Assembly (NCBI GenBank): GCA_016937575.1
Contig: JAFHKN010000002.1
Coordinates: 3,159,001-3,223,000 of the forward strand
DNA length: 64,000 nt
From: Roseomonas aeriglobus
GTDB lineage: Bacteria; Pseudomonadota; Alphaproteobacteria; Sphingomonadales; Sphingomonadaceae
Direction: 5' to 3'
Shown piece by piece: positions 36,530 to 41,349 of the stretch (positions are counted from its first letter, which is position 1; each line of letters opens with the position of its first letter). Under the pieces are notes generated by a model. That model searched no databases. It was given only the letters and a program-made list of their open reading frames with translations, and was not told the DNA's origin. A program made the position numbers and the translations under genes.

Positions 36530-36559
36530 GCCGCCGATCCGGTTCGCCATTGTCACGTC

Positions 36560-36724
36560 ATGGCGACCGGACGCGACATTCCCGAAGCAAAACGAGCGCC
36601 GGCCCGGCGAGTTCTTGCCTTGACGAACGCGCCCGACGTCTTCCCCGTGCTACCCGACGAGGCGGCCCTGATCCTGCTGCACCTCGGCCCGGACCTGACG
36701 TTGATCCTGAAGGGCAATCGATAG
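36560..36724 (+). CDS. small ORF upstream of the serine recombinase
   Basis: A 54-residue frame (starts MATGRDIPEAKRAPARRVLA, ends LTLILKGNR) lies between gene 3 and the recombinase, with motif site 3 upstream. The first half is basic, the second hydrophobic (DEAALILLHLGPDLTLILKG). There is no strong ribosome site. It resembles the short leader ORFs sometimes found before large serine recombinases, but no family is recognised. Confidence 0.4.
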   Translation: MATGRDIPEAKRAPARRVLALTNAPDVFPVLPDEAALILLHLGPDLTLILKGNR

Positions 36725-36783
36725 GCGCTGGTCAGGTTGACGGCGATCGACGATCGTCGCCATGGCAGAAAGGAAAACAGCCC

Positions 36784-38439
36784 ATGAAACCCGCGCTCCG
36801 CGCCTATGGCTACGTCCGTGTCAGCGTCGATGAAGAGGGCGGCCAGAATGCCAGTATCGCCGCCCAAAGTGCCGCGATCCGCGCGCACGCCGAGCGTGAA
36901 GGCATCGAACTTGTCGCGATCTTCGAGGAACTGAACGTCTCGGGCCGCAAGCTCCAGCGCAAGCAGTTCGACCGGATGATCGCGCAGGCGACGGCGCCAG
37001 ATCGACCCGTACAGATGGTGATCGTCTATGCGCTCAGCCGCTTTGCCAGGCGGCTGCTGACCCAGGTCGTGTCCGAGCACAAGCTGGCCGAGGCCGGTGT
37101 CAGTCTCCTCAGTCTGACCGAGAACTTTGGCAACGATTCGAACGGCAAGATGGTGCGATCGATGTTCGCCGTCATGAACGAGAAATACGCGCACGATGCG
37201 TCGGTCTTCACCACGCGGGATCGCCGCGGCAACGCGATCAGCGGCTATTGGAACGGCGGACCGGTTCCCTACGGATATGAATCGCGTGCGGTCGGCACGT
37301 TCGATCGCAAGGAGCGCAAGAAGCTCTTCATCCGCGAAAATGAAGCTCGCGTTGTCCGACTGATCTTCGATCTCGCCCATCAGGGTCTACATGGGCAGCC
37401 GATGGGTACGCGCGCGATTGCCGCCCATCTGAACGAGAACGGCTACACCATGCGTGGCCGGCCTTTCCACAACAGCAACATCGATGGAATCCTGAAGCGC
37501 GCTCATTATACCGGCGCCTATCTCCATCGCCCGGCCAATGCCCAGGCTTTGCCTACCGGCGACAGCGACCCTGTGCTGGTATCGTGCCCGCAGATCATCG
37601 AGCCGGACCTAATGGCGCAGGTCGCGGCCATTCGCGCCAAGTCGGCACCGCGTGTCCGTGCGCCGCGCACGACCAACTCGCCAGTCCTGTTGGGCGGTGT
37701 CGCGACCTGCGGTCATCCCGGCTGCGGTGCGGGTCTCGTCATTCGCAGCGGTAAGGCCGGTGCGTATCGCTATTACACCTGCAATGCCAAGGCGACCGCT
37801 GGCGCCAAAAGGTGTGCCAGCAAGCCCATCCGCGAGGAGGCGCTCGACCAGATCGTCCTCGATGGGCTGCTAAAGCGCGTGCTGGCGCCCGCGCGCCTTC
37901 GCGTTCTGCTGGCCGACGTGCTCGACCGGTCGAATGAAGCCGAAGAACGGCGCCGCGCGGATCACGATCGGGTGCGGCGTGAGCGTATCGCGGCAGAGGC
38001 TCGACTCAGCCGCTTGCTCGACCTCGTCGCCGAGGAGATCATGAGCCCGCGCGAGCCTGTGTTCGCTGCCAAGCTGGCCGAGGCTCGAGCATCGATCGCC
38101 GCGCTGTCCGAAACAGAGCGTAGCCTCGCGAAGCAGATCGGTCACAAAGCAGGGCGGATCGACGACGCCGCAATCAAGAAATTCGGTGAGCGCCTTCGCG
38201 CCGAAATCACCGGCGCCAATACCGAACTGCGGCGCGCTTACCTCAAGATCTTCGTGTCGGGAGTCGTCGTCAATGATAACGAGATCATCGTAGCCGGGTC
38301 CAGGGCTGCGCTCGAAGCCGGTGCCCATAAGGGCCAAACCGGCTCGCTCACGTCGGTGCCCAGTTTTGACCGGGAATGGTGCCCCGTGCACCACCCTATA
38401 GGGCACTCGGATTGCTGGGAGATTTTAGTTCAATTATGA
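36784..38439 (+). CDS. large serine recombinase
   Basis: The 551-residue site-specific recombinase has an N-terminal resolvase domain (YGYVRVSVDEEG, catalytic Ser14; YALSRFARRLL with conserved Arg residues). It continues with a Recombinase domain (~165-275: YWNGGPVPYGYESRA, RAIAAHLNENGYTMRG), a zinc ribbon (CGHPGCGAG, then YYTCNAKATAGAKRC) and a coiled coil (~390-450). These enzymes integrate and excise phages or mobile islands at short att sites. The ATG at 36784 begins the domain; the frame is open further upstream. The C-terminal ~25 residues look unusual and run to 34 bases before the IS nest. It may have moved the 12.3-38.4 kb segment, or a smaller cargo. Confidence 0.93.
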   Translation: MKPALRAYGYVRVSVDEEGGQNASIAAQSAAIRAHAEREGIELVAIFEELNVSGRKLQRKQFDRMIAQATAPDRPVQMVIVYALSRFARRLLTQVVSEHKLAEAGVSLLSLTENFGNDSNGKMVRSMFAVMNEKYAHDASVFTTRDRRGNAISGYWNGGPVPYGYESRAVGTFDRKERKKLFIRENEARVVRLIFDLAHQGLHGQPMGTRAIAAHLNENGYTMRGRPFHNSNIDGILKRAHYTGAYLHRPANAQALPTGDSDPVLVSCPQIIEPDLMAQVAAIRAKSAPRVRAPRTTNSPVLLGGVATCGHPGCGAGLVIRSGKAGAYRYYTCNAKATAGAKRCASKPIREEALDQIVLDGLLKRVLAPARLRVLLADVLDRSNEAEERRRADHDRVRRERIAAEARLSRLLDLVAEEIMSPREPVFAAKLAEARASIAALSETERSLAKQIGHKAGRIDDAAIKKFGERLRAEITGANTELRRAYLKIFVSGVVVNDNEIIVAGSRAALEAGAHKGQTGSLTSVPSFDREWCPVHHPIGHSDCWEILVQL

Positions 38440-38854
38440 CGCACTCTATCTCCGACTTGACGTGCTCCCCTGAAACTCCGCCAGTCTTGACGTGCTCCCC
38501 GTTTTCAGGCCGCTGATAGGTTAGCTTCGGTGTCCTCGTGCCCGTGGCGCGGGCGGTTGGTAAACTCGGCGGGTGCCATGCCGCCGAGGCTGCTGTGCGG
38601 ACGCACGGTGTTGTAGTCCGTCCGCCATGCCTCGATGATCCGTCTCGCCGCAGCCAGCGAGGGGAACAGGTGCTCGTTCAGGCATTCGTCGCGCAAGCGA
38701 CCATTGAACGATTCCACAAAGCCGTTCTGCTGCGGCTTGCCCGGGGCGATGTAATGCCACTCGACGCCCGTGTCCTGGCACCAGGCCAAAACGGCATGAC
38801 TGGTCAGTTCGGTTCCGTAGCACATTGGGAAGCGCTGGTTCGGGAGCCGCTATG

Positions 38855-38960
38855 GCCCTGATGAAGACAAGGCCGCGTAGCGGCCGCAGACTTCATCAGG
38901 GCAAGCCATGGCCGGTCAGCAGGTATCTAAAGTGAGGTTGTCGAGACAACACTTTGGAGG
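38855..38960 (+). ncRNA. candidate bridge RNA region in the IS110 left end
   Basis: Two stem-loops precede the transposase. GCCCTGATGAAG (38855-38866) pairs perfectly with CTTCATCAGGGC (38891-38902) and encloses GGCCGC-GTA-GCGGCC (38871-38885). AAAGTG..TTGT (38929-38941) pairs with ACAACACTTT (38946-38955), next to the GGAGG ribosome site. IS110-group elements are known to make a structured bridge RNA from the left end, between the element end and the transposase. The location fits. Guide loops matching GT-containing donor and target have not been worked out. Confidence 0.45.
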
Positions 38961-38970
38961 CCGACCGACC

Positions 38971-40242
38971 ATGACCAAGCTCACCTCTACGCCTGCCGGC
39001 GCCGTGCTGGTAGCCATCGACATGTCCAAGAGCCGACAGGAGGTTCTCATCGAGCGACCGGAAGGCGGCCGGCGCCGGCGGATGACCGTCATGGCGACCA
39101 GGCAGGACTATGACGGCTTTGCCGAGCAACTCGCTGCTATCGGGCGCCCTATCATCGTCGGGTTCGAGGCGACGGGTAATTACCATCGTACGCTGGCGCA
39201 CCGGCTGCTGACGGCAGGGTTCGAGCTGCGCCTCATCTCGTCGGTCGCGCTCGCCAGAACGCGCGAGGCGCTGCACAACGGCTGGGACAAGAACGACTCC
39301 AAGGACGCGCAGGTCATCCTGCACATGCTGCGGATCGGTGCGACGCAGCGCTACGTCGACCCGCTGGTGGCCGGAATCAACGACCTGCAGGAGCTCTCGA
39401 AGACTCACGAGACGATCTCAAGGATGAAGACGCAGACCTGGCATCGGATCCTGACCCACTACCTGCCGCTGTACTTCCCCGAGATCGCCCGCTTCGCAGG
39501 CAACAGCCGGTCCGACTGGTTCCTGGCGCTCATCGAGCGGTTTCCGACGCCGGCCACCATCACGGCGCTGGACCGCGAGGCGTTCTCGGCCGCGGCATGG
39601 CCGCTCATCGGCCGCAAGGTCTCCAAGGCACGCCTCATCAACGACATCTACGAGACGGCGTCCGCCTCGACGGCACTGCCGGTGCCGGAGAACTCAGCCG
39701 CCATCACCATGTTCCGCATGGTCATCGCGCAGGGCCGCAGCCTCATCCACCAGCGAGACGAGATCGAGCGGCTGGCCCATGCGCGGCTCGCCGATGACGT
39801 CGACTACCAGCTGCTGCGCAACATTCCGGGCATCGGTCCGATCAACGCGCTGACCATCCTGGCCGAGGCCGGTGATCTGCGGCGCTTCAACCATCATCGT
39901 CAGTTCCTGAAGTTCTGCGGTCTCGATCTCGCAACGTGTCAGTCAGGCACGTTCCGTGGCCGCACGAAGCTGTCCAAGTACGGCAATGCGCGCCTGCGCC
40001 GGACCTTCTGGATGGCTGCCCAGGTCGCCGCGCGTCAGCGCGACAACAGCTTCCGCGACAAGCTCGGACGATATGTCGCCGGGCACGCGGACGATGCCGA
40101 CCGTCGCCGCAAGGCGATGACGGCGCTCACCGCCAAGATGGCGCGCGTGGCTCACGCCGTCATCAAGACGGGGACAGAGTACCGGCCGTTCCTCGAACGG
40201 TCGGATGCCAGGTGGAAGGACCCCTCTCTGCAAGTGCCGTGA
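38971..40242 (+). CDS. IS110-family DEDD transposase/recombinase
   Basis: The 423-residue protein has an N-terminal RuvC-like DEDD domain (AVLVAIDMSKSRQE with Asp17; IVGFEATGNYHRTLAHRL; WDKNDSKDAQVILHML). Its C-terminal Tnp domain includes LLRNIPGIGPINALTILAEA and FLKFCGLDLATCQSGTFRG with the catalytic serine region. TTTGGAGG precedes the ATG at 38971; the longer frame from 38908 includes leader RNA. No frameshift or stop is seen, so it is probably active. It inserted into the IS3 orfB. Confidence 0.93.
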   Translation: MTKLTSTPAGAVLVAIDMSKSRQEVLIERPEGGRRRRMTVMATRQDYDGFAEQLAAIGRPIIVGFEATGNYHRTLAHRLLTAGFELRLISSVALARTREALHNGWDKNDSKDAQVILHMLRIGATQRYVDPLVAGINDLQELSKTHETISRMKTQTWHRILTHYLPLYFPEIARFAGNSRSDWFLALIERFPTPATITALDREAFSAAAWPLIGRKVSKARLINDIYETASASTALPVPENSAAITMFRMVIAQGRSLIHQRDEIERLAHARLADDVDYQLLRNIPGIGPINALTILAEAGDLRRFNHHRQFLKFCGLDLATCQSGTFRGRTKLSKYGNARLRRTFWMAAQVAARQRDNSFRDKLGRYVAGHADDADRRRKAMTALTAKMARVAHAVIKTGTEYRPFLERSDARWKDPSLQVP

Positions 40243-41026
40243 GGGCGCTCGTCGAGCGACCCTGTAGATAATGTTCGGGCCTTCCACCTGGGTGCGTATC
40301 TCGTTTTAAGGATGGTGAGGACCACGGCCGCCTCGGCGCTGCTGGATCCTGTGTTTGCTATGGCAGGGAGCGATCCCGTTGACGGTGGGAGCCATCTGGC
40401 TCAGATTGCATGCCGCGCCGACGGTTGTCGGCGCATGGATATCTGCTGGCCAAAACCCGCCGCTGCTTCCCGACATAGGACGTTGTCGCTGACCACCATG
40501 CACGGCAGCCCGCGTCGCTCGGCAATGGCGGCGAGCTCGCGGACGACACGCCGACCTGACAACGAGGTGTCGACGATACACGCGAGGCACTCCCGGCTGT
40601 AATCGTCGATGACGTTGAGCATGCGGAACCGCCGGCCGCAGGCCAGTGCATCCGACACGAAGTCGAGAGACCAGCGCTGGTTGGGACCCTGCGGGATCGC
40701 CATCGGCGCCCGCGTGCCCAGCGCCCGTTTCCGGCCGCCACGCTTGCGCACCGTCAGCCGCTCCTCGCGATACAGCCGGTACACCTTCTTCAGGTTCATG
40801 CCCTTGCCTTCGCGCCTGAGCAGGACTGCCAACCGGCGATAGCCGAACCGGCGACGCTCGTTGGCAAGCTCGCGCATCCGCTCGCGGACAGCATCATCCT
40901 TTCCGCGAAGCGGCTCATATTGTCACGCCGACCGGTTGACCCCGACCAGCCTGCAGGCGCGACGCTCGGAGAAGCCGTGGTCGGTCATCAGCTTCTCCAC
41001 CGCAGCGTAGCGATCCACAGACCGGG

Positions 41027-41290
41027 TCAGTTTTTTCCCAGCAGATCCTTCAGCGCCGACACGTCCAGCATCGACTCCGCCAGCAGCTTCTTCAGCCGCC
41101 GGTTCTCATCCTCCAGAGTGCGCAACCGCGCCGCTTCCGACACGGTCATACCACCGTATTTCGCCTTCCAGTTGTAGAAGGTCACATCGCTGATGCCATG
41201 CTTTCGGCACAGCTCGGCGGTCTTCACGCCAGCCTCGTGCTCACGCAGCACGCCTATGATCTGATCCTCGGTAAAACGGCCTCGCCGCAT
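41027..41290 (-). CDS. IS3-family transposase OrfA
   Basis: The 87-residue HTH protein (MRRGRFTEDQIIGVLREHEA, CRKHGISDVTFYNWKAKYGG, then a leucine-zipper LRTLEDENRRLKKLLAE, ending LLGKN) is the OrfA half of an IS3 element of the IS407/IS51-like type. It is intact, but its OrfB partner is broken. Confidence 0.9.
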   Translation of the reverse strand: MRRGRFTEDQIIGVLREHEAGVKTAELCRKHGISDVTFYNWKAKYGGMTVSEAARLRTLEDENRRLKKLLAESMLDVSALKDLLGKN

Positions 41291-41349
41291 CGCTCGTCTC
41301 CATCTGACGAGCTAACTTATCGATGGCATGATTTCCGGGGAGCACGTCA

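Follow-up and report, generated by a model that had tools for sequence, protein, structure and literature searches.

A candidate right-end bridge RNA in an IS110-family element found at the Asp-Asn-Gly codons of transposase genes

The window analysed here is a 64,000-nucleotide stretch of Roseomonas aeriglobus (assembly GCA_016937575.1, contig JAFHKN010000002.1, positions 3,159,001 to 3,223,000), and at positions 38819–40483 of it lies a transposable element of the IS110 family, inserted in the transposase gene orfB of an IS3-family element. From comparison with relatives we propose, with a probability of roughly 85%, that this is an RNA-guided transposon whose DEDD recombinase uses a bridge RNA encoded downstream of its own gene, at 40239–40403, and whose target is the codons for the Asp-Asn-Gly of a transposase. 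A preliminary description, drawn from the letters of this stretch, had looked for the bridge RNA at the other, left end. The features of the locus are as follows.

38488–41349, minus strand: interrupted IS3-family element, its orfB split by the IS110 element (terminal repeats, a second copy, and NCBIfam and Pfam transposase matches on the flank pieces)
38815–38818, plus strand: left target half, CCGT (CCRT in 76 of 77 distinct left flanks)
38819–40483, plus strand: IS110-family element, 1665 bp (five identical full copies in the host genome, and their flanks)
38819–38824, plus strand: right-donor sequence AGCACA at the left end of the element (predicted to pair with the right donor guide, RDG; two positions covary)
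38827–38833, plus strand: left copy of a subterminal inverted repeat, GGGAAGC, 8 bp inside the left end
38971–40242, plus strand: DEDD recombinase, 423 aa (PF01548, PF02371, NF033542, motifs)
40465–40471, plus strand: right copy of the subterminal inverted repeat, GCTTCCC, 12 bp inside the right end
40476–40483, plus strand: left-donor sequence TAGGACGT at the right end of the element (partly the same letters as the left donor guide, LDG)
40484–40487, plus strand: right target half, TGTC (TRTC in 71 of 72 distinct right flanks)

The host genome contains five full copies of the element, 100% identical and each covering query bases 1–1665, together with two right-end fragments that both stop at base 1665; to judge by their flanks, these copies occupy no fewer than three different sites. 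Across the junction, the DNA on either side of the window copy reads ...CMVVSD|NGTELTSH... on the minus strand, the frame being restored without extra bases when the element is removed. The flanks of the host copies and this reading fix both ends, and they bear out the preliminary description as to the exact ends, 38819 and 40483, and the insertion in an IS3 orfB. Its statement that such elements leave neither duplication nor inverted repeats holds for the duplication and fails for the repeats: the subterminal inverted repeat is exact over 7 bp in the window copy, and among 83 two-ended loci the longest exact match is at least 7 bp in 48 and shorter in 35, at offsets that are not all alike. 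The noncoding stretches of the element measure 152 bp upstream of the ATG at 38971 and 241 bp downstream of the stop codon. The interrupted IS3-family element (about 2.86 kb) has the terminal repeat TGACGTGCTCCCC at 38488 and its reverse complement at 41337, and a second copy matches it at 96.7% across 2865 bp. The host chromosome carries three copies of this IS3 with the IS110 element inside, all interrupted at the same codon (the window copy, L004, and L005), two of which agree at 99.93% over 2874 bp, as long as the IS3 and its insert together; the two elements may thus move as a unit, independent insertion into the three IS3 copies being the alternative.

The recombinase matches PF01548 (72.4 bits) and PF02371 (93.7 bits), that is, the DEDD catalytic domain and the C-terminal Transposase_20 domain, and reaches 214.3 bits, against a cut-off of 140, with NF033542, the NCBIfam model for RNA-guided IS110 transposases, as expected of the IS110-type DEDD recombinase that had been predicted. 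Its motifs AIDMS, FEATG, NDSKD, and CQSG stand at positions 15, 65, 108, and 323, and an in-frame ATG at 38908 would lengthen it by 21 aa. By sequence, its relatives with solved structures are ISCro4 and IS621, the match being confined to the C-terminal part. The recombinase (38971–40239) also gives, in its C-terminal part, a weak match to a TIGR-Tas endonuclease model (35.7 bits, cut-off 100). By its domain pair and by its specific target without duplication, the element is a member of the IS110 family in the broad sense.

Relatives came from species genomes (the best 80 of 165 related stretches), from two viral contigs, and from plasmids (16 of the 60 best hits listed); adding the copies in the host genome gives 104 loci, in which a left end was recognised in 96 and a right end in 89. 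At the 8 loci without a recognised left end and the 15 without a right end, the contig or copy often stops there; the patterns by which ends were recognised demand a T preceding the left end and, at the right end, GACGT, and would pass over variants like L094 (TAAGACGC). The flanks give the target consensus CC[A/G]T|T[A/G]TC, and just these eight flank positions are fixed or restricted to A and G; the target sequence is CCGTTGTC, of which the two A/G positions allow four versions. Of the longer stretch earlier proposed for target pairing, CGGTTCCGTTGTCGC, the CCRT|TRTC portion is conserved and the rest is not. At the two exceptions to the consensus, L063 and L102, two such elements lie head to tail, the right end of one joined directly to the left end of the next. 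The GT core described earlier stands for the right end of the element itself, whereas the target side has GT or AT (43 G and 33 A among 76 distinct left flanks). Among the identical host copies, A as well as G occurs at each of the two variable target positions.

Read on the opposite strand, the target is GAY-AAY-GG, the Asp-Asn-Gly codons at the second catalytic Asp of IS3, IS481, and IS30 transposases, and Asp-Asn-Gly is encoded there in 68 of 69 distinct two-flank sites. When left and right flank pieces were scanned separately for transposase domains, the right pieces contained PF00665 (rve) in 63 of 66 cases (it was missing in L070, L107, and L025), and the left pieces contained PF13683 (rve_3) in 65 of 69 (L107, L064, and L082 being among the misses). 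With NCBIfam, IS481 models match 55 and IS3 models 53 of the 66 right pieces, in overlapping sets, and by best matches the invaded genes are IS3, IS481, and IS30 transposases, the IS30 family being that of site L064. The L025 right piece is only 49 aa, yet it reads ...VSD|NGTEL. In the host genome, 7 of the 15 rve matches break off at profile position 74, and each of the seven borders directly on the element or on one of its fragments. At one locus, L015, the left flank is half of an IS3-type and the right flank half of an IS481-type transposase; such a hybrid could arise if two copies sharing the insertion codon recombined and so exchanged their transposase halves. A few sites lie outside transposase genes: between two annotated DUF1173 pieces (L107), at the Asp-Asn-Gly codons of the mismatch-repair gene mutL in a metagenome-assembled genome (L082, left flank only), and in hchA (L070, right flank only). 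All three carry the same target motif and, since MutL has its own Asp-Asn-Gly at the place of insertion, the DNA spelling rather than the transposase as such seems to count.

Why the known sites should be so largely transposase sites is a question on which we are almost evenly divided, leaning slightly against the idea that they dominate through purging of insertions elsewhere, or through carriage of the element inside IS3, and not through a guide evolved for a protein motif. The vacant CCRTTRTC sites in the host genome, 353 in number, the rare sites in mutL, hchA, and the DUF1173 gene, by which other genes can be hit, and the three copies of one IS3 carrying the element at the same codon all speak for it, but IS3, IS481, and IS30 genes at least are hit in relatives, for which carriage by one IS3 lineage is insufficient. 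This explanation is compatible with an RNA mechanism, as it concerns why the sites look as they do.

The proposed RNA and its parts are these.

40239–40403, plus strand: candidate right-end bridge RNA (seekRNA), with the limits of the modelled region rather than of a transcript (R1 model match, covariation)
40243–40262, plus strand: helix 1, 40243–40248 with 40256–40262 (99.3% of cells paired)
40267–40274, plus strand: predicted right target guide GAUAAU (40267–40272), then GU (40273–40274) (GAYAAYG in 47 of 47)
40281–40391, plus strand: helix 2, 40281–40288 with 40384–40391 (4 of 8 pairs changed on both sides, 98.7% paired)
40295–40372, plus strand: helix 3, 40295–40302 with 40366–40372 (4 of 7 pairs changed on both sides)
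40309–40314, plus strand: predicted LDG, AGGAUG (AGGAYRG in 47 of 47)
40318–40350, plus strand: helix 4, apical, 40318–40324 with 40343–40350 (2 of 7 pairs changed on both sides)
40352–40363, plus strand: predicted RDG, UGUUUGCUA (40352–40360, two U skipped), core U, and GG (40362–40363) (covaries with left-end positions 2 and 5)
40391–40395, plus strand: predicted left target guide GCCAU (placed by the fold)

Among relatives at 62–100% protein identity, the 241 bp from gene to right end are far better conserved than the left end, and the case for an RNA there is comparative. The 52 distinct right ends yielded 47 distinct trimmed RNAs for alignment; L061 and L085 were left out by the start pattern, though the R1 model of the RNA finds it in both. 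The four-helix fold, drawn by hand with the guidance of an automatic consensus fold, has 28 pairs, with 98.8% of 1316 alignment cells paired and 11 pairs and 79 cells changed on both sides; in none of six slid controls did such double changes exceed 2 pairs and 7 cells, and shuffle controls averaged 7.8 pairs and 20.3 cells. The sole match of the R1 model in the window is 40239–40403, at 181.6 bits. Of 33 further sources searched with it, 30 contained the RNA (two of the 30 gave copies of the model-building type, from the same contigs or families), the other three ending or being cut before the RNA. The RNA occurs in 4 of 385 genomes of the host's class, the host included; blastn at the setting used gave no match in E. 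coli genomes, and an Rfam scan of the window returned nothing at the gathering threshold. It is present in ISMex12 and ISRel25, members of the same family (names from plasmid annotation; 65–69% protein identity), of which ISRel25 shows the same target in both flanks, while in ISMex12 the left end alone is readable. No natural retargeting, meaning a relative with a different guide, was seen among the 16 of 60 best plasmid relatives or in the three class genomes besides the host. One right-end fragment of the host genome (L007, also L100) lacks the beginning of the RNA and has other DNA in its place, directly ahead of CGTTTTAAGG.

The outer loop, between helices 1 and 2, holds GAUAAU on its 5' side and GCCAU on its 3' side, and the inner loop, between helices 3 and 4, holds AGGAUG 5' and UGUUUGCUA 3'. 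GAUAAU is complementary to the top-strand RT-TRTC; GCCAU matches CCRT and would pair with the bottom strand, as would AGGAUG, which equals AGGACG at the right end of the element except for U in place of C. The donor side is where guide and DNA vary together: in 69 distinct combinations, the RDG base and left-end position 2 are C/G in 64, U/A in 4, and U/G in 1 (Fisher 6e-6), and at position 5 they are G/C in 67 and A/T in 2 (Fisher 4e-4). Dinucleotide shuffles of the window RNA contain the three longer guide motifs together in 2 of 5000 cases and in the correct order in none of 5000. These guide matches and the donor covariation favour the earlier expectation of an RNA guide pairing with both target and donor. 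After strand exchange, the GU at 40273–40274 could pair with donor AC, and the GG at 40362–40363 with target CC, in the manner of the IS621 handshake guides. Both variable target bases are the third bases of the Asp and Asn codons, and a guide U faces each of them. U pairs with A and, by wobble, with G, and Asp and Asn codons end in C or T; the use of A and G by identical host copies fits a wobble reading.

It is also conceivable that the right-end RNA belongs to the recombinase mRNA as a structured untranslated region and that the protein itself reads the target. The RNA begins at the stop codon of the gene and could share its transcript, but the covariation of the donor guide with the left end is unexpected of a plain untranslated region, and the order of guides agrees with that of IS1111 seekRNAs in the available parts of the published account (PMC11187229); we hold this explanation to be very improbable.

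The left end has a structure of its own, in two hairpins.

38855–38902, plus strand: left hairpin 1, a 12-bp stem (38855–38866 with 38891–38902) with an inner 6-bp stem (shape kept, sequence not)
38923–38961, plus strand: left hairpin 2, pairing the GGAG ribosome site at 38956–38959 (covariation)

The 12-bp stem, the inner 6-bp stem, and the second hairpin beside the ribosome site are all as the preliminary description had them, and of the two ends that it singled out for folding the left is far better than shuffles (z -5.74; 0 of 200 as good), whereas the right, folded alone, is not (z -0.55). A long hairpin precedes the gene in 12 of 12 left ends folded. Among relatives with the same target, hairpin 1 keeps its form while its sequence is free to vary. 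In hairpin 2, 85.6% of 348 cells are paired and both partners have changed in 25 cells, where slid controls show 1 to 10, and we take this hairpin as a control of recombinase translation. In the window it holds GUUGUC and GACAAC, matching the target on both strands; these occur in 40 and 15 of 72 left ends, respectively, and are not kept by relatives that share the target. The guide motif GAYAAYG is found in 0 of 72 distinct left ends as against 47 of 47 right-end RNAs. A guide in the left end was considered and rejected on these grounds, the unconserved hairpin sequence at a constant target, the absence of GAYAAYG, and the role of hairpin 2 as a ribosome-site stem. Search of the loops thus gave matches to the target and to both ends of the element at the right end and no conserved guide at the left, and the bridge RNA is better placed at 40239–40403. 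A bridge RNA in the hairpins at 38855–38961 is the least probable of the explanations weighed here, for all their strong fold, the match of hairpin 2 to both target strands, and the mostly upstream position of IS110-group RNAs in the available parts of published accounts (PMC11208160, PMC11187229), because hairpin sequence varies freely while target and donor are constant, GACAAC occurs in just 15 and GAYAAYG in 0 of 72 left ends, and hairpin 2 covaries as a stem over the ribosome site.

Outside the IS3 element and adjoining it is a large recombinase-like ORF (36550–38439) containing YGYVRVSVDEEGG, presumably related to the serine recombinases.

Several observations weigh against the right-end RNA and its guides as proposed. 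The right end of the window copy, as noted, folds by itself no better than shuffles (51 of 200 as good); further pair types in the alignment are fewer than in shuffles (21 versus 24.3); and as the fold was drawn from the same sequences, part of its excess over the slid controls arises by construction. The left target guide is weak taken alone, since all 47 right-end RNAs contain CCRY but so do all 72 left ends, and the LDG or RDG motif by itself appears in about 10% of shuffles, in a test for which the motifs were picked after the sequence was seen. The Fisher tests ignore kinship, and the six covarying loci may represent two or three events; moreover, the U of the RDG fails to pair with left-end position 6 in 14 of 87 rows, and pairing at position 4 fails in 7 of 87. 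The flanks cannot prove wobble, because the Asp and Asn codons of a transposase force A or G at both variable target positions, and covariation of guide and target at a codon third position is uninformative: each of the three loci with C in the guide has TGTC, but this is also the case in 72 of the 86 rows with U. Finally, CCRTTRTC stands intact and unoccupied at those 353 places in the host genome, yet nearly all insertions found are in transposase genes; pairing over eight bases alone therefore does not explain the sites.

In the mechanism that we favour, the RNA, once transcribed, would read the two target halves with the guides GAUAAU and GCCAU of its outer loop, while the donor guides of its inner loop, AGGAUG matching the right end and UGUUUGCUA pairing with the left end with two U skipped, would hold the circular element, which the recombinase would join to the target by strand exchange beside the core dinucleotide. 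As the 8-bp target is antisense to GAY-AAY-GG, any transposase with a catalytic Asp-Asn-Gly would offer a site, whatever its codons, if the guide, having U at the third position of both codons, accepts either C or T. The second catalytic Asp would be parted from the Glu by the insertion, so that the invaded transposase should be killed and the host insertion sequence lose its function.

Comparison with known systems draws on the available parts of the published descriptions. ISEc21, of the IS110 family, targets the codons of the second catalytic D and makes no target duplication (Siddiquee et al. 2024, PMC11187229), and by that description it resembles the present element in both respects; it differs in that its RNA is upstream and has the top-strand match 3' of the bottom-strand match, whereas here the RNA is downstream and the order is reversed (PMC11187229). 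IS110-type RNAs have been characterized by a bottom-strand match 5' of the top-strand match, and IS1111-type RNAs by the reverse (PMC11187229). With the IS1111-group elements ISEc11, ISPa11, and ISKpn4 the present element has in common a longer downstream noncoding region, a 5' top-strand match, and, in the window copy, subterminal inverted repeats (PMC11187229), which in that group measure 7–17 bp (PMC11208160). Its longer noncoding region and its candidate RNA follow the gene (241 versus 152 bp), and its top-strand match, GAUAAU at 40267, lies 5' of its bottom-strand match, GCCAU at 40391, the latter being short and putative. It departs from the IS1111 group in its recombinase, 423 aa as against 330–350 aa, and in its target (PMC11187229), and from the IS110 group in the narrow sense in that its RNA is not in the left end. 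IS621 likewise has target and donor loops, a discontiguous right donor guide with two flipped-out U, and cleavage beside the core (Durrant et al. 2024, PMC11208160; Hiraizumi et al. 2024, PMC11208158), but its RNA is in the left end and its target and donor loops lie side by side (PMC11208160), whereas here the donor hairpin stands between the two target guides. The order here is right target guide, left donor guide, right donor guide, left target guide, which on our reading would be a circular permutation of the IS621 order, obtained by cutting it within the target loop and joining its former ends.

The targeting of Asp-Asn-Gly codons is already known, and the target is therefore not new, because ISEc21 has been reported to target the codons of the second catalytic D (PMC11187229). 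The apparent novelty lies in a second lineage whose RNA is at the right end, whose guides come in a permuted order, and which would read codons by wobble. In the literature searched, with subscription papers and bioRxiv outside it, we recognised by title and abstract no paper on circular permutation between IS110 and IS1111 RNAs and no description of the present family, and the names ISMex12 and ISRel25, for which it describes no target or guide, are absent.

We put forward tentatively, at somewhat less than even odds, the wider proposal that an alphaproteobacterial IS110-type lineage has fixed the guide GAU-AAU-G, the sense codons of the catalytic motif, with third-position U reading all spellings of Asp-Asn-Gly by wobble, and is thus an RNA-guided parasite of other transposable elements at a stretch that they cannot change, its RNA being a circular permutation of an IS621-type bridge RNA, which would explain the reversed guide order between IS110 and IS1111. 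The nested order of loops would then give a simple topological account of the reversed guide order in IS1111-type RNAs. If a U facing the third position of a codon confers true tolerance, degenerate coding sequence is within reach of bridge RNAs, a property of use in design. The arrival of two lineages, that of ISEc21 and the present one with its right-end RNA, at the same catalytic codons would point to a recurring strategy, that of aiming at a protein motif which other transposons have to keep.
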